From Isosphaera pallida ATCC 43644 (GTDB lineage Bacteria > Planctomycetota > Planctomycetia > Isosphaerales > Isosphaeraceae): a DNA stretch of 64,000 nt. The position numbers were made by a program, and so were the translations under genes. Positions 4,801 through 57,420 of the stretch are shown here, in pieces; position 1 is the first letter of the stretch; the number at the start of each line of letters is the position of its first letter. Under the pieces are notes generated by a model. The model searched no databases and was not told where the DNA came from. It saw nothing but the letters and a program-made list of their open reading frames with translations. The stretch spans positions 4,120,450 to 4,184,449 of the forward strand of contig NC_014962.1 of the NCBI RefSeq assembly GCF_000186345.1. The letters are read 5' to 3'.

Positions 4801-7800
4801 GGGCGAGCTTCGCGCCCTCCAACCCCGGCAACGCCTTCGAGTTCAATAGCTGGTTCAACCACGCCGCGGCGGGCAACACCAACGCCGCCAATCCCCTGGC
4901 GGCGTGGCAGGCGGTGGTGCAGTCGATGCAGGCCAACGGCGGCTTCGGCAACGCCATCGCCGCGCCCGCTTCGGCCCACAACGGCCTCACTCCACCCACG
5001 CTCCACGGCGGACGGCGGATCAACCTTAACTTCGCCTTCCCTGTGTCGGACAACCCATTCGAGCCGGTTCGTCAAGAATGGGTGCTCGACGCCTACGACA
5101 TGATGAAAAAGGCGCTCCCACCCCTGGCGGTGGATGACCCGGTGGAACGGGCGCAGCTGTTTCAACTAGCGCTCAACATCGTTGACTTCCGCGACCCCGA
5201 CGGCGTGACCACGATCGCCACCTGTCCCGACGTGACCCTGGTGCCCGCCACTCAAGATGAACCAGCGCGGGTAGAGTTCCGCGTCGGAGCGTTGGCCGGC
5301 GCTCCGCCGTTGCAGATGTTCGGCATGGAATATCAACCGGTGGCAATCAACGAGGTGCTGGCATTCCAGTACACCCCGCAAAGCGGCCAACCCCAGGCGC
5401 GTCTGTTCATCGAATTGGTCAACACCCTCACCCGTCCTGGCCCCGACTCGCCGTTCCCCACCGCCAACGACCTGACGTTGGAAGGTTGGGACCTGATCCT
5501 CACCAAGGACGGCGACGAACTGGATCCCACCACCAACTTCTGGCAGGCCCGACCCGATCCGATCACCGGCCAACCTGGCGTGATCCCGCCCACCGGCGTG
5601 ACCCCCATCCCTCCCGGCGATCCAATCCCCGCGCTTGATGGAACTTCGGGAGGCGCGGCACGAGCCAATCCGATCTATTACTTCACGCTGTCCAACACAC
5701 CGGCCGATCCAAACGTCGAAGAGAACCCGCCGCCCTCCAACGACACCGCCCGCGCACTGCCGACTGGCCGTCAACTCGACAATGCCTGGGTGGACGCCAA
5801 CCTGTTGAACAACCCTGCGCCGCTGGGGAATCAGGATCGGCGGTTCCACTGGGTCTATCTGCGACGTCCGGCCAATCCGCTGCTGCCGCCCAATCCGGCC
5901 ACCAACCCGATGGTGGTGATCGACTCGATGCGGTTCCCCTACATTGAAGGCTCAGGGACTGGCGCGCCCAACCCCAATAGCAACGCCCGCCGTGTCTATT
6001 CGGTCTACCGTCGCCAGCCTTACCGGGGTGGCCAGGTGATCTTCAACCACAACTTGCCCGACGTGATCGACAGCGGCGGCAACCTGGTCCACAACCCGGC
6101 GGTCCCCCGCCCGCGTTACGCCTACGGCTTCTCGGAACAAACCGCCTCCTACAGCGCCCAGCAGGAAAACAGCGTTCCCTCCACCTCCAATCGCCGCTAC
6201 CGCATTTTTTGGGACGCCTCTCAACCGCCCACTGGTCCGGGCTCGGAAAACCGCTACCGCACTCGAACGATCTACAACACCATCGCGCGGAGTAACGACC
6301 GCAACGACAACGGTCATTTCGCCCCCTTCACCTTCCACGACCGCGAATACATGAGCGTCGCGGAAGTCCTGCTGGTGCCGATCTGCTCGCCAGGCCTGTT
6401 CACCAAGCAATTCATCGAGCGGTCGTATCACCCCGGGCGTTACCGCAACACTCCGGGCGACCCCACCGCCAACGATTACCGGCAACGACCCGCAGCCTAC
6501 GGCAACGACCCCGGCGAAAGCCAGCGGATCGACGCCTCGAATCGGGATCTGAGCCACGAAAACTCGGAGGATATGCCCTCTTATCCCTGTCTGAGCGATC
6601 TCTTCTACTACTCCGGCGCGACTCCACAGCCTCCCGGCGGTCAGGTCGCCTCGCTGATCACGCCCAAATCGTGGTATAATCCCGCCGATCCTAATCTCGC
6701 CGCGTTGCCGCCCTCCCAAGTCGGCGGAACCACCGGCGCGGGCTGGGCACGGATGCTGGAGTTCTTCGAGGTTCCCTCCACGATGGCCGGCACCCTCGGA
6801 CCCGCCGCCGCTGGAGACAACTTCGACTGGGCGCGACAGGATCGCGTCCCCGGCAAGCTCAACCCCAACCTCATCATCGATGAAGAAGTGTTTTTGGGTC
6901 TGATCGACGATCCCCGGTTGAACCTCTCCCCCGTGCCGCTGGGCCAGGGTCTCCATGTTGTCCACGGCCTCAACGAAGTCGGCGCACCGTACTTCCAGGA
7001 ATACAACCGTGGCGCGCCTCGGGTTGGTCCGAGTGTTCCCGGTGGTTCGGCTCTTCAGGTTGAGAACGACGCGCGGATCAACAACCCAGCCGGTCTGCCG
7101 CTTCCTCCAGACAATGGAATGAGTCCACTGGCGTTGATGTCCACCGCCTTCCACGACTTCCTGTCGTTGACCCACGGCGGCTCGGGACACATCTTCGCCC
7201 ACGGCACCGGCCCGGTGGGCGCGGGCAACGTGGGAACCCCCAACCCCGTGCCAATCGCCGCCGAGCGTCCCTACCGCTCACTCGCTTACCCGGACATCAA
7301 TGCCACCATCATGCGGCCCGCCTGGTTGCCGCCCGGCCCGGCTAGCGAATCGGTCGCGCCATTGTATGTGGCCTCCGGCGTCGGCTCAACCGACCCCAAT
7401 TGGCCTTACCGAGAGCCATTCCCCGCGCCGACCCCACTGATTCCAGGCGACCCTCTCAGAAGTTTCGCCACCTTTGCCGACCAAGGTGTGCGCAACCCCT
7501 ACCTCGAATGGGGAGCCTGGCCTAACACCCTACCCCAGGAACGCACCGTTCCACCGCTGCCACCCCGCCGGCTATGGCAGATGCCGGATTACTTCGACGT
7601 GCGGTTCAACAGCGTTCAGGATCCCAACAACCCCGGCGATCCGATGGCCCGTGTGACAATCGTTCGGCCCCCCCTCGAACAGTACTACCACCCCACCAAC
7701 GAACGTGGTGGTCTGCATGTGAACCTACCGATGGATCATAAGCTACCCGACGTTCTACCCGCGGTCGGCTCGGGCTACAACATCCGCAACCGGTTCGCCA

Positions 7801-8432
7801 ACCTGTTCGGCTCACAGCCCGCCATCGGTGACGCATTCAATCCGACCACTCATTTGGACGCCTCGGGTATCCAGGGAAGTGACCCCGCCAACCCGCCCGC
7901 GGTCCTCTATCTCTACCGCGACCGTTACGGCTTCAACAGCGGGTTCCGCTACCCAGTCGAACCGCCTCAATACTTCTTGGGCGGAGCATTCATCGAAACC
8001 TACCGGTACGACCTGATGAACGATCCGGGTAAAACCAACCCGATCGACGCCCACTACAACGGCGACGACCCGGCGTATGTTGGTCAACCTCAGCCCTATG
8101 AATACCTCACCGGTACCTCGACTCGGGTGACCGACCATCGCCGCGAGCCGTACTTCCGCACCGAGTTGCTTCAGAAGGTCATGAACCAGACGACGCCGCG
8201 GACCCACCAGTACGCGGTCTGGGTAACGGTGGCCTTCTTCGAGGTCACGGAACAGGGCGACCCCCGGTTGCTCAAGCCGGACCAACTCGGTCCCGAACGG
8301 GTGTTGCCCAACGGCGAAACCGAGCGGATCAAGACCTTCTGCGTGATCGACCGCACCCGAGCTATCGGCTTCAACCCCGCCATCCCCGGCGACTTCCGCG
8401 ATCTGATCACCTACCGCCGTCGCATCTTCTAA
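1890..8432 (+). CDS. Giant GspK/PilX-like pseudopilin-type protein (2180 aa)
   Basis: The predicted protein has a prepilin-like N-terminus: a basic stretch with a Gly just before a hydrophobic helix (RRGVVLILVLALLSLMALIG, about residues 27-46), then a polar segment typical of PilX/GspK. A GspK-like signature GLNGRLPLNTAGN follows around residue 490, resembling the 'G-x-INLNTA' core of GspK. Acidic Asp/Asn-rich stretches (DVDNDGDGYKEG; DVDQDGNTD) could bind calcium. The remainder is Pro/Asn/Asp-rich, soluble and unlike domains I know. ATG 1890 was chosen because AGGAG lies at 1875-1879; ATG 1872 is the alternative. The usual GspK length is about 300-350 aa, so this is roughly six-fold larger. 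It probably caps or decorates a pseudopilus; this is inference from family and neighbours. Confidence 0.7.
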   Translation: MRPARPPFPDSAASPPIPAPATGSPERRGVVLILVLALLSLMALIGVTFATISGQYQRSSRSFAQSLLNPPAADLVDYALNQLINDTGNPLSAIRGHSIKRDMYGNDAQYNGFLDRHPINRGLLRITAVANNGDGTLTLTTNLESIAAASLNLNFNRWILRTVPNPGEVTQTLEVNDVQWNPALATRVTNEPFVRLQVAPRVVVADNGAALAQPVVGRVFTLDGRYLNMMNGPGLDSLTPTLGALNSRIPNPTNVSNPLLGQDSAPVEDPVINGLVPGIPFPETAGRHPNFRFNGLGNRILTALVAPKFMWFNSTSLFGALGDPDFVGMDEDYDACDLENWFMAIQSADGRVVVPSFHRPAILVHAANNPSAPINPANPFLRRSDWESYTDAELALMALNEPRRYQAMQIRSKFLRPRKADHPKWSWTENPTGTDPVPDPATGAIEYDVDNDGDGYKEGVWLDLGYPAERDPETGRLFKPLFSFTVIGLNGRLPLNTAGNLQARKLFNDSSGIPVGAPLWTHTSHLGYSVNEINPLFALQNAYLFPGVPTDATRLGLDADGNPTIMNNNVYSQVDVRGINVAVTQLRNLLTGTRPHANPAAPDFTENGESDFVQVAGQPFFMPNNIFQNPGDANAIRRTPAVAGRWGEADAVPDNLVLGVDPTAPYTAFNTTVRAGRGNTGNPVNRFHPGTDDDFNGHDPVPFNAPETANLYDVAGQLPIPAERMREFSRPVDVSGNGRVVHHDWNGYLRVGSGGINPIREFAPQLAWGTGADQYGRVGHFMYFRPEGLVVDSAGALKGANTNRMHGFEAWKSPNGLDVAPTVGQVRAFGVLDVDQDGNTDPAIDLLPRRFMAAMPFDGALNAPHNNGVPTYNPVNFAARPNPGDPVAPVNAYPLGSLAKDEASELNLYDPAPYYDAPFTNNDLDWLYNRDKDIVQQGSRLASLAPISFTNPKDGQQRRRLFAVETWDLNRASFAPSNPGNAFEFNSWFNHAAAGNTNAANPLAAWQAVVQSMQANGGFGNAIAAPASAHNGLTPPTLHGGRRINLNFAFPVSDNPFEPVRQEWVLDAYDMMKKALPPLAVDDPVERAQLFQLALNIVDFRDPDGVTTIATCPDVTLVPATQDEPARVEFRVGALAGAPPLQMFGMEYQPVAINEVLAFQYTPQSGQPQARLFIELVNTLTRPGPDSPFPTANDLTLEGWDLILTKDGDELDPTTNFWQARPDPITGQPGVIPPTGVTPIPPGDPIPALDGTSGGAARANPIYYFTLSNTPADPNVEENPPPSNDTARALPTGRQLDNAWVDANLLNNPAPLGNQDRRFHWVYLRRPANPLLPPNPATNPMVVIDSMRFPYIEGSGTGAPNPNSNARRVYSVYRRQPYRGGQVIFNHNLPDVIDSGGNLVHNPAVPRPRYAYGFSEQTASYSAQQENSVPSTSNRRYRIFWDASQPPTGPGSENRYRTRTIYNTIARSNDRNDNGHFAPFTFHDREYMSVAEVLLVPICSPGLFTKQFIERSYHPGRYRNTPGDPTANDYRQRPAAYGNDPGESQRIDASNRDLSHENSEDMPSYPCLSDLFYYSGATPQPPGGQVASLITPKSWYNPADPNLAALPPSQVGGTTGAGWARMLEFFEVPSTMAGTLGPAAAGDNFDWARQDRVPGKLNPNLIIDEEVFLGLIDDPRLNLSPVPLGQGLHVVHGLNEVGAPYFQEYNRGAPRVGPSVPGGSALQVENDARINNPAGLPLPPDNGMSPLALMSTAFHDFLSLTHGGSGHIFAHGTGPVGAGNVGTPNPVPIAAERPYRSLAYPDINATIMRPAWLPPGPASESVAPLYVASGVGSTDPNWPYREPFPAPTPLIPGDPLRSFATFADQGVRNPYLEWGAWPNTLPQERTVPPLPPRRLWQMPDYFDVRFNSVQDPNNPGDPMARVTIVRPPLEQYYHPTNERGGLHVNLPMDHKLPDVLPAVGSGYNIRNRFANLFGSQPAIGDAFNPTTHLDASGIQGSDPANPPAVLYLYRDRYGFNSGFRYPVEPPQYFLGGAFIETYRYDLMNDPGKTNPIDAHYNGDDPAYVGQPQPYEYLTGTSTRVTDHRREPYFRTELLQKVMNQTTPRTHQYAVWVTVAFFEVTEQGDPRLLKPDQLGPERVLPNGETERIKTFCVIDRTRAIGFNPAIPGDFRDLITYRRRIF

Positions 8433-8442
8433 CCTCACCTCG

Positions 8443-8463
8443 CCGCGGGATGGACTCCCGCGG
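8443..8463 (+). terminator. Perfect 8-bp hairpin after the GspK-like gene
   Basis: CCGCGGGA (8443-8450) and TCCCGCGG (8456-8463) form a perfect GC-rich stem with a 5-nt loop, 10 bases past the stop codon. There is no T-run after it, so it is a hairpin-only candidate terminator or a 3' stabilising structure. Confidence 0.45.
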
Positions 8464-8616
8464 ATCGCCTCGGGGCGTTGGCCGCTTGCGATCAGCGCGA
8501 CCCGAGGCCACAATAACCCTCATGCCTTCACGAGTTTCATCGCCGCGTTTTCCCCATCGGATTGATGTTCGATCCGTCGCCCTCGAATTCGACGTGACCC
8601 GTTGAGGATTCGTCCC

Positions 8617-9974: not shown

Positions 9975-10135
9975 GTGGAGAGTGGGGTGTGGGGTGTGGG
10001 GTGTGGGGTGTGGGGTGTGGGGTGTGGGGTGTGGGGTGTAGGGTGTGGGGAGTGGGCAGTGGGCAGTGGGCAGTGGGGTGTGGGCAGTGGGCAGTGGGCA
10101 GTGGGGTGTGGGCAGTGGGGTGTGGGCAGTGGGGT
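9975..10135 (+). repeat. Heptamer tandem array 1 (GTGGGNN, about 23 units)
   Basis: Twenty-two consecutive 7-bp units run from 9982 to 10135, preceded by one degenerate unit (GTGGAGA). The first eight are GTGGGGT, then come GTAGGGT and GTGGGGA, and then a mixture of GTGGGCA and GTGGGGT. The plus strand is G-rich with regularly spaced runs of three or four G, which fits the G-quadruplex pattern. A short degenerate remnant follows at 10157-10180. Short heptamer repeats of similar composition (STRR) are known from filamentous cyanobacteria; the resemblance is noted from memory. Confidence 0.93.
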
Positions 10136-10467
10136 GTGGTGGGTTCAGAAGAGTAGGGTTTGGGGAGTGGGGTGTTCGGAGGAGAAGATAAGGAATAAGG
10201 AGTTTCGAGTTGGGACGGAAGAAGTGGGAAGAGAAAATAAGCTGTGGGTGATCGTAGGATGAAGTGACATCAGCGCTCCGGTTTGCAAAACCCTCACTCA
10301 TGCCTTTGCATTCTTAGATATTTCGATATTGACAAAAGCATTCAATATGACAGGATTCACATTCGTTGCGATTATAGATGATCGATGTAGCAGCCCGCAA
10401 CTTCCCGTTTTACATCGATCGAATCTCATCTTTAATTTTCTCGCTTTTTCCTTATCAAACAGCACTC
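10136..10467. other. AT-richer spacer between the two heptamer arrays
   Basis: This 332-bp stretch is clearly lower in GC than its surroundings, especially 10187-10463. I see no coding region with codon use like the neighbours, no tRNA and no inverted termini. It probably contains the promoter of the downstream redoxin gene. A perfect TTGACA is present at 10329-10334, but no convincing -10 box follows at 16-18 bp. Confidence 0.5.
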
Positions 10468-10572
10468 TCCCCACACCCCACTGCCCACACCCCACTGCCC
10501 ACTGCCCACTGCCCACTCCCCACACCCCACTCCCCACACCCCACTGCCCACTGCCCACTCCCCACACCCCAC
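10468..10572 (-). repeat. Heptamer tandem array 2, inverted copy (15 units)
   Basis: Fifteen exact 7-bp units (ACCCCAC, TGCCCAC, TCCCCAC) run in register. Read on the minus strand they are GTGGGGT, GTGGGCA and GTGGGGA, the same unit types as the array at 9982-10135 but in opposite orientation. The array stops ten bases before the AGGAG ribosome binding site (10582-10586) of the next gene, so it must form part of that gene's leader or promoter. The two arrays could pair into a long imperfect stem around a 332-bp loop. Confidence 0.93.
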
Positions 10573-10594
10573 TCCCCCCACAGGAGCCTTGTTC

Positions 10595-12880: not shown

Positions 12881-15800
12881 ATGAGCCGAAGCCAGGATGG
12901 GAGTCGGCCGGATGAGCAGGTCCGGTCTTCGGAATCGCGTCTTCGACGTCCCCGCCGCCGCTGGACCGGGCGGGTCGAGACGTTGGAGCCTCGGGTGGTG
13001 CTAAACGCGGCGTTCGATGGGATTGGGCTGACCGCGGCCCGTAACGACCCCACCTTCGGGGCGTCGTTGGATGGGATGGGTCCCGATGGCCGTCCGATTG
13101 GGATCGCCGTGATCGACACGGGAACCAACGGCAGCAACCCCGCCCTCGTGGAGAGTCTAGCCGCCGCCTACGACGCCGTGCTGGGTAGCCCGCGCGAGCC
13201 GTCTGAGTCGCTCGACGGCAATGGCCGAGGCAGCCAGGCCGGTTCGCTGATCGTGTCGGACGATCCGACAATTGGCGTGACTTCGATGGGTCGGATCGTG
13301 GCCGTTCGGGCCTTGGCCCGCGACGGCGAACCCCAGGCTCCGTTCGACGCCGTTGCCAACGCGCTGCAGTGGGTGATCGACAACGCCCGGCTCCACAACA
13401 TCAAAGTGGTCGATCTGTCGGCGGTCGATGATCAGATGCTCAACTCCTCCGACGAGATTCGGCCCGGCGGTTCACGTCTGGCGGCCCTGGATCAGCTAAT
13501 CGGTCAACTCGAAGCCCAGGGGATCACGGTAGTGGCCGCCGCGGGGGATCGCCAACCGGGGATGACCGGCGAAGGGGTCTCGACCGCCGCGACGGTGGCG
13601 ACCTTAGGGGTCTCGGCCGCGACCACGCCGGGCGGTCCTAACTCCAGCGTGCGTGAGGAACTCTCCCCCCTTAGCCGTCGGGGAACGGCGGCCAACCTGA
13701 TTTCAGCCCCCGGCGACGCGATGCGGGCGGTCAACGCCAAGAACGCTTTGACTTCGTTCCGCTCCGGCTCAGCAATAGCCTCGGCGGTCGTCGGTGGAGT
13801 CGTGGCGCTGTTGCAGGATGCCGCGGCCACCTTCGGTGAGCGTTCGCTCCTGCCGTCCGAAATCCGCGACATTCTCAAATCCACGTCCGACGTGATCCCC
13901 GCCTCAGCCTCCGCCATATCCACCGCCGAGGTCGACGACTCCGGCCCTTCAGCCGCCTCGCTGAGTTTGGAGACGGGGATGCCCGCGACCCTGGCCGAAG
14001 CGTCGGCCTCGCTGACGGCGATGCTAGAGCGGATGCGTTCTGAAGCAATCGCGGCCGAGCCTCGGGTCAGCGAAGCGATTGAAACCCTGTTGTCCACCCT
14101 GAACGGCCACAACAGGACGTCTCCCAGCGTCCAAGCCGCGTCCCAGACCGGCTGGCGCACGGACAATCGCGTTCAAGCCGCGTCCGACGATGCGAATGAC
14201 ATGGAAGTCGAGTCGGACGAAACCGCCGGCGGTCCGATCCAGGTCGCCCAAGTCGGCGAGAACGGCTCGCTCGATCGGATTCGCGTGGATCGCGCTGTGG
14301 TGGAAACGATCAATCAGGTGCGAACCTCGGTTGAAGGGGAACTCAACGCCACCCTCGCCACGGCGGTCGAATTGGGCGTGGTCACCACCGAGCGGGCCGC
14401 GTTCGCCTCCGGTTTCATCGGAAGCGATGGTCAAAACGCAGTGGGAGCCAACGATGTCGATTTGTATCGGGTCGAGACCGACGGCCAGGGACGCCTCCGC
14501 GCCCGGGTGATTCCCACTGGCGACAACGGCGCGGGTCTCAACGCCGAGTTGCGGATCTTCGATGCTCAGGGTCAGCAGGTCGCGCGGGCCCAAGCGCCTT
14601 TGGGCCAAGCGGTCACCATCGCCACGCCCGACCAGGCCAGTGCGGCTCGCCGCGTCTTCTTCGTGGGGGTCTCGGCGTTGGGCAACGCGGCGTATGATCC
14701 CACCACCGGCACGGGGGCGACCAGCGGTTCGACCACGGGGGGGTACGACCTCGAAGTGCTGCTCGAAGCGCCCGACCCCAACGGCACAGCCGCCGGAGCG
14801 CAACGGTTGCTCAACCTGCCAGTCGTCGATTTCACCGCGACCATCGGCAACGATCCGGCCCCGATCGGCTCGGTGGGAGTAGTCGCAGTCGGCGGCAACG
14901 ATGTGGATATGTATCTCGCCCGCGCCAACGACGACGGCCTCTTCCGCGTCCAGGTGTTGGGAACCGGCACCCCGGCGCTCACCGGCTTCCTGGCGATCTA
15001 CGAGATCGACGCCCAAACCGGCGTCCGACGATTCCTCAGCTCCTCGACCAATCCCTCGGGGACCCTCGACAACGAGTTGACCGTGCCCGCGATCCGGGGC
15101 AACGATTATCTCGTTGTCATTGCCGACGCGACCAACACCACCTTCGACCTGGACAACGGCTACAACCGTCGCCCCGTTGGAACCGGCGGGGGCTACCGGA
15201 TGTCGGCCGCCTTCGACAACCGCGACGTGGACGGGGCGATTCCCCTGATCGGTCCCGAGGCAATCCGCACGCTGCCGGTCAACGCGCAGTTCCAACGGGT
15301 GGAAGGAACCATCGGCATCGATCCGGGCGTCGATCCGGTGGGACGCGACGGACGGCTCGACGTGGACACCTGGGCATTCCGGGCCGAGTCCAACGCCGTC
15401 TTCGAGATGCGTCTGGCTCCCGACGCCTCAGGAGCCGACCCGGCCGTGAGCGTGGAACTCTGGTCGTTCGATCCGCAAACCAACCGAGCTGCTCGCTTGG
15501 CCTCCTCGCGTGAAACCGGTTCGACCAACTTGGCGGTGCCGGTGCCCGCCGGTCAGGTGGTCTACGTCACCCTCGCGGCCGACTCCAACGCGCGTCCGCT
15601 CTGGGCGGCGACCACCACAGGAATACCCCGAGCCGAGCCATTCACGCCAATCCCCTACGCCGTCGAAGCCCGGATGCGTCCAGCCAGCGACCTCAACGGG
15701 CTGCTTGACGACTCGATCCGCGACGCCACCGGGATCACCAACCTGAGCGACGGAGTGGGCGTGGTCGCTCGGCTGGGCGATGACCAAACTCGTCCCGACG

Positions 15801-16807
15801 GTCCGATTCTGGCCCGCGGAGCTGCTGACCTCGATCTGTATCGGATTCGTCCGACTCGCTCCGGCTCGGTCACGCTGACGACCTTCCGGCTCGATTCGAC
15901 CAGTCCCGACACGAAGCTGAGACTCTTCGACGCCCAGGGCAACGAAATCGCCGCCAACGACGACTTCGTGGCCGACGCGGTGGACAATCAGCCTGTCGTG
16001 GCCACCCTCAACGCCGGCGGCTATTCGCAGGCTCTTGTGGACGCGCGCCTCACCGCCAACCTCGACGCGAATGTGACCTACTTCGTCGGCGTCACCGCCG
16101 TGGGCGAAGGCACCAACGACTACAACGCCCTCACCGGCCAGGGAGTCGCGCCGGCTGCCCAGGGGCTCTACGGTCTGCGCCTCGAAGGCGGAGGCGGCGT
16201 CCCGCCCACCCCCGGCGGTCGTTTGGAGGATTTCATCGTTCAGTTTGGTGAACGCCAACGCTCGTTCGTCAACCATGTCCGCATGGTCTTCTCCGACGAC
16301 ACCAATGTTGACGCGCTGTTTCAAAGTGTCACCACCAACCGGCCCGACCGCATCCGAATGTTCCGATCCAACCTTCATGGCACCGGCTTAATTCCCGTGG
16401 AAATCGCCGACGCCGCCCGACGCGAAGGCCAGGACATCGTGCTCGATTTCGGCCCCCAAGGCATCGGCGGCCCCCGCGCTACTCCCATCCCCGGCGACGC
16501 GATCTACACCGTGCTGATCGACGCCAACCTCGATGGTCGGTTCGAGACCCGCCGACGCTTCTTCCGCCTCCTGGGCGATGTGGACGGCAACCGCATCGTC
16601 GATCGCGACGACGTTCAAACCGTCCAACGCGCCGTGGGCGTCACCCCCCCCGAACGAACCGAACTCGACGTCAACGGCGATGGCCGTGTCGATCAACGCG
16701 ACGTGCGACTCACCCAACGCTCGGTCGGACGACGAGTCATCCCACCCATCCGCGCCTCCGTGGTCGAATCCCAAGCCGATGACCTCGGCTCGGGCGACTT
16801 CCAATAA
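12881..16807 (+). CDS. Secreted subtilisin-fold protein with PPC-like repeats and dockerin; likely inactive
   Basis: 1308 aa. An Arg-rich N-terminus leads to VETLEPRVVLNAAF (residues 32-45), the LEPR-type motif of planctomycete secreted proteins. Residues about 70-330 follow the S8 subtilisin fold: IAVIDTG with Asp79; DGNGRGSQAG, where the catalytic His position is Gln119; VVAAAGD, where the oxyanion Asn is Asp; and SGSAIASAVVGG, where the nucleophile Ser is Ala298. Three of four active-site residues are therefore replaced. About four PPC-like beta domains follow between residues 500 and 1120 (for example DVDLYRVETDG and ADLDLYRIRPT). The C-terminus carries two dockerin type I calcium loops (GDVDGNRIVDRDD and LDVNGDGRVDQRD). 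It is probably a surface scaffold or recognition protein rather than a protease. The start is set by AGGAG at 12866-12870. Confidence 0.85.
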   Translation: MSRSQDGSRPDEQVRSSESRLRRPRRRWTGRVETLEPRVVLNAAFDGIGLTAARNDPTFGASLDGMGPDGRPIGIAVIDTGTNGSNPALVESLAAAYDAVLGSPREPSESLDGNGRGSQAGSLIVSDDPTIGVTSMGRIVAVRALARDGEPQAPFDAVANALQWVIDNARLHNIKVVDLSAVDDQMLNSSDEIRPGGSRLAALDQLIGQLEAQGITVVAAAGDRQPGMTGEGVSTAATVATLGVSAATTPGGPNSSVREELSPLSRRGTAANLISAPGDAMRAVNAKNALTSFRSGSAIASAVVGGVVALLQDAAATFGERSLLPSEIRDILKSTSDVIPASASAISTAEVDDSGPSAASLSLETGMPATLAEASASLTAMLERMRSEAIAAEPRVSEAIETLLSTLNGHNRTSPSVQAASQTGWRTDNRVQAASDDANDMEVESDETAGGPIQVAQVGENGSLDRIRVDRAVVETINQVRTSVEGELNATLATAVELGVVTTERAAFASGFIGSDGQNAVGANDVDLYRVETDGQGRLRARVIPTGDNGAGLNAELRIFDAQGQQVARAQAPLGQAVTIATPDQASAARRVFFVGVSALGNAAYDPTTGTGATSGSTTGGYDLEVLLEAPDPNGTAAGAQRLLNLPVVDFTATIGNDPAPIGSVGVVAVGGNDVDMYLARANDDGLFRVQVLGTGTPALTGFLAIYEIDAQTGVRRFLSSSTNPSGTLDNELTVPAIRGNDYLVVIADATNTTFDLDNGYNRRPVGTGGGYRMSAAFDNRDVDGAIPLIGPEAIRTLPVNAQFQRVEGTIGIDPGVDPVGRDGRLDVDTWAFRAESNAVFEMRLAPDASGADPAVSVELWSFDPQTNRAARLASSRETGSTNLAVPVPAGQVVYVTLAADSNARPLWAATTTGIPRAEPFTPIPYAVEARMRPASDLNGLLDDSIRDATGITNLSDGVGVVARLGDDQTRPDGPILARGAADLDLYRIRPTRSGSVTLTTFRLDSTSPDTKLRLFDAQGNEIAANDDFVADAVDNQPVVATLNAGGYSQALVDARLTANLDANVTYFVGVTAVGEGTNDYNALTGQGVAPAAQGLYGLRLEGGGGVPPTPGGRLEDFIVQFGERQRSFVNHVRMVFSDDTNVDALFQSVTTNRPDRIRMFRSNLHGTGLIPVEIADAARREGQDIVLDFGPQGIGGPRATPIPGDAIYTVLIDANLDGRFETRRRFFRLLGDVDGNRIVDRDDVQTVQRAVGVTPPERTELDVNGDGRVDQRDVRLTQRSVGRRVIPPIRASVVESQADDLGSGDFQ

Positions 16808-55941: not shown

Positions 55942-57420
55942 ATGGGGCCTCATTCACGTCACATGACCTCCTCATCCGTGGTGGCGTCCTCGGATCAACC
56001 CACCAAGATGAGTGGACGGAGCCCGCGATCCGCGCGTGGTCGGCGAGGTCGATCTCGATCGCGTGGGGGTCTAATCGCGTCCACCCTGGCGGCGGCGTTG
56101 CTGCCGGTTGCGCTGATGGTCGCTCAGCCGACTCTCATGTTCGAGCGCGGGTGGGTCCAGTTCGCCGGCGTGGTCGTCTATTGGTTCGGCCTGGCGCTGC
56201 TGGGCCGCATCCTCTGGCGTCTGCACGTCGAAGAGGTCGGGTTCCAACGAGCCGACGCCTGGGAACGAGCCGCCGATCTTGGCGAGATCGCCCGCTCCAT
56301 CCCACCCGACGACCCTAGCGAGCTAGCGCGACGGCTCCGCCAACTCGCGTTCACCCACTTGGTCATCTCATCGCCACCGCACCCGCGACCAAACGCTCCC
56401 GAGGCATCGTCATCCGATCGGATCGGAATTGCTGGCGTCCTTCCGTTGAACAGCCCTTGCGTTGAGCCCGCTCCCCGCCACGCCCCCCCCCTCACCCGCC
56501 CCTCACTGGGCCAACTCATCGAACTCAACCGCGAAGCATCCGCGCTCGATCAGGAGCGAGCCGCGGGCCGCTTCGCTTTGCCCCGCTATGCTCTCTACCT
56601 GCTACCGGTCATCGGCTTCATCGGCACGGTTGAGGGGATCTCGATCGCGCTGTTCCGCATGTCGCAAGTGCTGCCCACCGTCAACGACCTAGACGGCTTC
56701 CTCGCCAAACTCGCGGGAGTCACCTCAGCCCTCCAAATCGCCTTCGACAGCACCCTGCTGGCGCTCTTTCTAAGTGCGCCCTTGATGTTCGTCTTGACGT
56801 TGATCCAACGACGCTCGGAGGAAAACCTCGCTCGGATCGACCAGTGGATCGTGGAGAACGCCCTGCCGCGTCTGAGTGGCGACGATGCCTGGGCGGGTCT
56901 CTCCGAGGGTCTGGCCCGATTGGAACGCGCGATCGAGCGGCAATCGCACGCCACCCGCGCCACACTGGAGGCGCTGGGCGGCGGCCTCGCCCCGCAAACC
57001 GAACGCCTGGCCGACGCGGTGGCCCGTCTCGGGCTGGGTCTGGAACGATTCGAAAGCGCCGCGCAGCAACTCGCCGCCCTTCAAGACGACCTCCATGCAA
57101 TCGCCGGACTCGTTCATCAACACCTGGCGATTCAACGGAACGACCATGCTGCTCAAATCGACGCCCTGACGCGGCTGCGCCACGCCACCGAGCGTACCGC
57201 CCAGGGTGTCGAAGCGCTGGCCGGGTCGCTCGCCGAATCGTTCGCCGAATCGACCCTCTCGGCCCAACGTCAGCTCGAAACCACTTTGGCTGGTCTACGC
57301 GACACCCTTGAAATGCTGCATGTTAGCATAGATCAGGGACATGTCCTGTATCGCTCGATCGTGAAGAAGATGACTCCCGCGCATCTGGTCAGCACGCCGG
57401 GACGCGAGGACGCCGCTTAA
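55942..57420 (+). CDS. MotA/TolQ/ExbB-type proton channel protein with long tail
   Basis: 492 aa from ATG 55942, behind AGGAGGGACGAAGG. A basic N-terminus leads to two membrane helices (about residues 44-66 and 71-91). A cytoplasmic segment of about 110 residues follows, then the two helices that define the family: YLLPVIGFIGTVEGISIALF and LQIAFDSTLLALFLSAPLMF. Residues about 290-480 form a heptad-rich helical tail (LARLERAIERQSHATRATLE and similar). ExbB and TolQ end soon after the last helix, so the tail is extra. The channel would use the proton gradient to drive a partner. The next gene encodes a membrane protein in the partner position. ZorA of Zorya defence also has such a tail, but no ZorC or ZorD is nearby. 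Confidence 0.85.
   Translation: MGPHSRHMTSSSVVASSDQPTKMSGRSPRSARGRRGRSRSRGGLIASTLAAALLPVALMVAQPTLMFERGWVQFAGVVVYWFGLALLGRILWRLHVEEVGFQRADAWERAADLGEIARSIPPDDPSELARRLRQLAFTHLVISSPPHPRPNAPEASSSDRIGIAGVLPLNSPCVEPAPRHAPPLTRPSLGQLIELNREASALDQERAAGRFALPRYALYLLPVIGFIGTVEGISIALFRMSQVLPTVNDLDGFLAKLAGVTSALQIAFDSTLLALFLSAPLMFVLTLIQRRSEENLARIDQWIVENALPRLSGDDAWAGLSEGLARLERAIERQSHATRATLEALGGGLAPQTERLADAVARLGLGLERFESAAQQLAALQDDLHAIAGLVHQHLAIQRNDHAAQIDALTRLRHATERTAQGVEALAGSLAESFAESTLSAQRQLETTLAGLRDTLEMLHVSIDQGHVLYRSIVKKMTPAHLVSTPGREDAA

Follow-up and report, generated by a model that had tools for sequence, protein, structure and literature searches.

The window analysed here is a stretch of 64,000 nucleotides from Isosphaera pallida ATCC 43644 (contig NC_014962.1), and the gene under study encodes a protein of 1308 residues in which a domain of the S8 (subtilisin) peptidase family is combined with a dockerin. 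From the N-terminus onwards, the open reading frame (ORF) encodes a LEPR-type segment, the S8 fold, a linker that is rich in Ala and Ser as judged by eye, PPC-like beta modules and a C-terminal module carrying the dockerin (Table 1). The host, strain IS1B of which is described in PMC3072084 as a phototactic, filament-forming, gliding planctomycete of hot springs, has a genome of 5,529,304 bases in two contigs (the larger of 5,472,964 bases) with a completeness of 99.97%; the same paper gives an Illumina coverage of 109.5x. Across the gene the coding frame contains no stop codon, as against 12–37 in the other five frames. The guanine plus cytosine (GC) content by codon position is 69/52/78, with the third position highest in each 100-codon block, and close values are obtained for the S8 domain alone, 67.5/55.3/78.1, as well as for the PPC part, 69.7/51.3/79.8. 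Four His residues occur in the whole protein, at positions 172, 410, 1132 and 1166.

The predicted fold of residues 41–360 is that of subtilisin. When this domain was scanned alone, PF00082 matched residues 73–336 with 56.5 bits (E 3.7e-15, profile positions 4–273 of 288, cut-off 21.8), and the genome search returned the same 56.5 bits; the family was unlisted in the scan of the full-length protein. The five active-type relatives described below score 110–116 bits with the same profile, compared to 56.5 bits for the I. pallida domain. An AlphaFold model of residues 31–370, built from 51 sequences, reached a predicted local distance difference test score (pLDDT) of 84.2 and a predicted template modelling score of 0.86; the underlying alignment consists mostly of active-type relatives, and the model leans on them. 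Its top Foldseek match was subtilisin 2sni (E 4.9e-16, TM-score by target length 0.78), and VIA-align superimposed it on Tk-subtilisin 2z30 with a Z of 33.3 and a root mean square deviation of 2.5 over 272 residues; a superposition on subtilisin had been proposed in an earlier, sequence-only reading of this DNA. Pfam listed no prodomain, either in the full-length protein or in the S8 domain alone.

Three of the four active-site residues of this domain have been replaced. The relevant motifs are IAVIDTG (residues 75–81), RGSQAGS (116–122), AAGD (220–223) and SGSAIASAVVGG (295–306). Taking the first His of HGTH to be catalytic His64 in subtilisin numbering, as we do here, alignment with the relatives leaves the catalytic Asp in place and puts Arg, Asp and Ala at the positions of His64, the oxyanion Asn155 and Ser221, respectively. 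The sequence-only reading had described a subtilisin fold with its catalytic residues replaced, the Asp motif being intact, the oxyanion Asn changed to Asp, and the His and Ser motifs altered. All of this held on alignment, except that it had treated the Gln of RGSQAGS as the catalytic position: Gln119 is located at His67, and it is Arg116 that occupies the position of His64. Since Arg116, Asp223 and Ala298 replace His, Asn and Ser, classical S8 catalysis is not expected and, judging from the sequence, the domain almost certainly lacks S8 peptidase activity; the pseudoprotease reading, with Arg at the catalytic His position, is very likely right. The domain combines S8 homology with the absence of the catalytic residues, as is the case for S8 non-peptidase homologues, a class of proteins that MEROPS accommodates (PMC5753285).

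That the S8 domain is still enzymatic through other residues is scarcely credible. While Asp79 is kept and Ser297 adjoins Ala298, the sole His among the 320 residues of the domain is at position 172, compared to five to seven His in the S8 segments of the five relatives, and the oxyanion Asn is changed along with the SLG strand, which is altered and has one residue inserted in the alignment. A recent loss through one mutation is also unlikely, because the changes extend to both His residues of HGTH, to Thr220 and Ser221, to the oxyanion Asn and to the SLG strand. Misalignment or sequencing error was ruled out, as the four separate motifs align in both a six-way and a 154-row alignment.

Table 1. 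Features of the I. pallida gene and its product (positions are those of the window).
Feature	Residues	Position	Strand	Evidence
Whole gene, from ATG	1–1308	12881..16807	+	ORF list and profile scans
LEPR-like export-type motif RVETLEPRVVLNAA	31–44	12971..13012	+	NF012209 LEPR-8K
S8 (subtilisin) fold domain, predicted	41–360	13001..13960	+	PF00082, AlphaFold, VIA-align
Position of catalytic Asp32, kept	Asp79	13115..13117	+	Alignment with relatives
Position of catalytic His64	Arg116	13226..13228	+	Alignment with relatives
Position of His67, non-catalytic	Gln119	13235..13237	+	Alignment with relatives
Position of oxyanion Asn155	Asp223	13547..13549	+	Alignment with relatives
Position of catalytic Ser221	Ala298	13772..13774	+	Alignment with relatives
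PPC-like beta modules, about four (by eye on the alignment)	485–1111	14333..16213	+	Colinearity with L086–L090
C-terminal module	1114–1290	16220..16750	+	Wholly or partly common to other Isosphaeraceae ORFs
Dockerin_1, one match in the protein	1231–1277	16571..16711	+	PF00404, 28.3 bits (cut-off 22.9)

To place the loss, the domain was compared with its relatives. A search of the class at E 0.001, in which at most five candidates were scored per genome and the counts are thus lower bounds, found a domain match in at least 110 of 397 genomes; at the stricter E of 1e-15, three of the 392 phylum genomes drawn contained a match, the I. pallida genome among them. A scan of genome contigs kept 80 loci, and an S8 row was obtained for 78 of them, L139 and L157 being the exceptions. 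The 108-row set excludes two loci, L050 (G013) and L051 (G147), as apparent duplicates of L087 and L090, whose contigs have the same lengths (32589 and 24149). The 154-row alignment includes 46 further rows, which are class-search places without a locus among the 80, and its rows are partly non-independent, with several coming from the same genus or genome.

In this alignment 150 of the 154 rows have D, H, N and S at the four active-site columns, and the I. pallida protein alone has D, R, D and A. The remaining three rows (L108, L124 and L156) lack Ser at its column; a GTS motif is located further on in each of these ORFs, as seen by eye, and we dismissed the three as further dead S8 domains, regarding the missing Ser as an alignment artefact. 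None of the 153 other rows shares the I. pallida replacements; there is no second Isosphaera among the 45 genomes of the order. Conservation of the replacements in orthologues, which the sequence-only reading had suggested looking for, was therefore not borne out. A normal triad in orthologues, which it had named as counting against its reading and as a sign of recent loss or misalignment, is indeed what we observed in the relatives (150 of 153 rows by alignment and three by eye); this does not imply misalignment. As far as the genomes compared show, the active-site loss appears specific to the I. pallida lineage, and these genomes do not point to a conserved pseudoprotease family.

Among the relatives are five ORFs from metagenome-assembled genomes of Planctomycetota (L086–L090). 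They share the LEPR, S8 and PPC layout and are homologous to the I. pallida protein in the same order, from residues 21–34 up to residues 1037–1114. Lineage labels assign L087 to Isosphaeraceae, L086, L088 and L089 to Phycisphaerales, and L090 to Planctomycetota, apparently to another family of the same class. The likeness is one of colinear homology, with the S8 domain of the I. pallida protein being 35.5–39.1% identical to theirs; the difference is that all five retain D, H, N and S, that their C-termini differ from that of the I. pallida protein, and that none of the five whole ORFs has a dockerin match.

The same colinearity defines the PPC-like part. No PF04151 (PPC) match was found by Pfam in the I. 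pallida protein itself, while all ten aligned relatives have one, in four stretches in the case of L089. The earlier proposal of PPC-like repeats is thus upheld by homology and is not backed by a Pfam match in the protein itself. The AlphaFold model of residues 441–1308 is weak (pLDDT 58.6, with the dockerin part below 50). Its Foldseek list, in which the tandem collagen-binding domains of ColG (5iku) ranked second, had low TM-scores and was not relied on; a PDB profile search returned ten chains, one named as a cell surface protein and the others with Cake or Bagel names, that matched over a short stretch, and these were not used.

The dockerin, also part of the earlier proposal, was confirmed: the PF00404 match exceeds the cut-off and both calcium loops, DVDGNRIVDRDD at residue 1233 and DVNGDGRVDQRD at residue 1263, are complete. 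The loop positions are presumably those of the calcium ligands. Dockerins belong to the cargo that a cohesin scaffold carries, not to the scaffold itself. The I. pallida genome contains eight dockerin matches, and the stretch comprising residues 1114–1308 is matched in 33 of the 45 genomes of the order (I. pallida included), with many matches covering the dockerin end only.

It had been suggested that the dockerin docks the protein on a cohesin-bearing scaffold, and a cohesin and dockerin system that includes peptidases, the planctosome, has been proposed for freshwater Planctomycetes (PMC6461901). The genuine dockerin with its two calcium loops, the eight dockerin matches in the genome and this published hypothesis speak for such docking. 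Against it, the genome contains no PF00963 (cohesin) match, although a cohesin too divergent for the profile is possible, and five of the 45 genomes of the order match PF00963 (four above the cut-off) compared to the 33 with a match to the C-terminal stretch. As a control, PF00963 matched one of 14 control genomes, that of Methanosarcina acetivorans. The planctosome model resembles the present case in joining dockerins to peptidase-type domains in Planctomycetes, but the peptidases named in PMC6461901 are M12B and M14 rather than S8, and cohesins have no recognisable counterpart in I. pallida. Because no cohesin match was found in the genome, a cohesin scaffold is unsupported and we consider this explanation very unlikely. 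Nor is a distinct type of scaffold protein, as had been put forward, supported, since among the genomes compared a single protein shows the loss and no cohesin partner was found. The case adds to the dockerins whose own genome has no recognisable cohesin.

We next consider the history of the protein. In a tree of S8 domains rooted on Clostridia-type loci, the I. pallida protein falls outside the L086–L090 clade (support 92.7/94); support for its position relative to the remaining groups is poor (67.8/57), and long-branch effects are possible. Its branch is 1.22 long, compared to about 0.63 for L087 and 0.69 for L090 measured from the same node. The paralogue L004 from the same genome, which has an intact site and is weakly placed, also has a long branch (0.83), so fast divergence is not limited to the dead domain. 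In a three-taxon test with L090 as the outgroup, target-only changes were in excess in both the S8 domain (67 versus 29) and the PPC part (116 versus 42), with no such excess for HtpG (47 versus 60) or an isocitrate dehydrogenase-like protein (46 versus 41). This test is weak evidence and may overstate the acceleration, because the tree places the I. pallida protein outside the L086–L090 clade. Of the 102 columns that are invariant in the five relatives, the I. pallida protein keeps 66 and has changed 36.

Taken together, the data lead us to favour, with moderate confidence, a probably exported multi-domain protein in which the S8 domain has become a genuine pseudoprotease, with the fold kept, His64, Asn155 and Ser221 changed to Arg, Asp and Ala, and the loss restricted to this lineage among the genomes compared. 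As its homology shows, the protein originated from a LEPR-S8-PPC protein of a kind that persists in other Planctomycetota and is predicted from its residues to be active. The LEPR-type N-terminus would mark the protein for export. The inactive S8 fold could then act as a folded module with a structural or protein-binding role, the PPC-type beta modules may, going by the family, bind polymer or matrix, and the calcium-binding dockerin end might provide attachment or assembly through a partner other than a recognisable cohesin. Several observations weigh against this explanation. The match to NF012209 LEPR-8K (14.4 bits, E 0.021) is under the cut-off of 17. Among the genomes compared, none is close enough to gauge selection on the dead domain. 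The long branch spans the whole protein and not the S8 domain alone, which fits relaxed constraint as well. Around the three changed sites the protein keeps 9 of 18 invariant columns, which is not a significantly smaller share than the 57 of 84 kept in the rest (p 0.18). The cohesin search of the genome, as described above, was negative.

The data are compatible with both a change of function and relaxed constraint. If the protease had become dispensable, the protein would be drifting and its S8 domain would have no retained function; the excess of target-only changes across the whole protein but not in HtpG or the isocitrate dehydrogenase-like protein, the 36 changes at otherwise invariant columns and the failure of Pfam to recognise the PPC repeats would all be explained. 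However, the frame of 1308 codons is intact: one random change per codon would be expected to create about seven stops in the S8 domain, where none is observed. The coding GC pattern is maintained along the gene, the fold is predicted with confidence, the dockerin loops are complete and, given the position of the protein in the outgroup-rooted tree, the acceleration counts may be too high. Because the coding frame is clean, decay is less likely than a loss of the active site in a protein that was retained; together with the predicted fold and the complete dockerin loops, the intact frame favours a retained product. We consider drift rather unlikely. A more specific form of the retained pseudoprotease, which we regard as a speculative and decidedly unlikely option, would be a non-cutting adhesive or matrix protein in which the S8 cleft binds one particular protein through its new Arg, Asp and Ala surface, and the dockerin assembles the pseudoprotease on the filament surface through a calcium-dependent contact that does not involve cohesin.

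S8 pseudoproteases are already known. CspC and CspA of Clostridioides difficile, as described in PMC6636752, likewise have a subtilisin fold that retains Asp but carries replacements at the two remaining triad positions (D105, T170 and G485 in CspC), and related Csp proteins remain active, so that the loss is lineage-restricted as in the I. pallida case. CspC differs in having a prodomain, a jelly-roll insert and a role in spore germination, in place of the PPC-like repeats and dockerin of the I. pallida protein. The NF040808 (CspC_non_triad) profile did not match the I. pallida S8 domain at E 0.1, and relative L088 matched it weakly (E 0.001). PIMMS2 of Plasmodium is similar in being a proposed pseudoenzyme with a subtilisin-like domain from which, in P. 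berghei, the HGT and GTS motifs are missing; it differs in belonging to a eukaryotic parasite, in having a transmembrane domain and in possessing, in P. berghei, residues that match D, H, S and N, and the sections of PMC5520436 that we draw on describe no PPC or dockerin. Well-studied S8 pseudoproteases seem to be few, CspC, CspA and PIMMS2 being those met in our literature search. A planctomycete S8 pseudoprotease was absent from the matches listed in open-licence literature, and one may hence exist in print; for Isosphaera together with dockerins a single paper, on huge proteins, was listed. The I. pallida protein would thus be a local further case and not a new scaffold system. What it may offer is a before-and-after pair for the role of a non-cutting subtilisin fold, with active-site-bearing relatives of the same layout on the one hand and the dead I. 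pallida domain on the other.

The I. pallida genome contains further S8-type ORFs with unusual motifs. L044 (C2:1384000-1398000, 5076–8501, minus strand) encodes 1142 residues with a dockerin match; it has VGVLSDS at the Asp motif, keeps GTSAAAPH and carries EGRAMIELVHDLAPGA between the two, and HGT was not found by pattern. Going by its motifs, L044 perhaps has a different catalytic set or is another degenerate S8 protein. L008 (C2:985772-989161) is part of a giant ORF of 3896 residues that contains VGVISDS and GTSAAAP; here too, HGT was not found by pattern.

Elsewhere in the window, ARAGORN reported, at 56905–57001 (minus strand), a tRNA of unknown type whose anticodon has four bases; this is perhaps a false call. 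The window also contains two tandem arrays of heptanucleotides: GTGGGGT at 9982–10139 (22.6 copies) and CTCCCCA at 10467–10577 (15.9 copies). The arrays are inverted relative to each other and about 330 bases apart, their longest arms are 123 nucleotides long and 88% complementary, and they presumably resemble the heptamer repeats of cyanobacteria.

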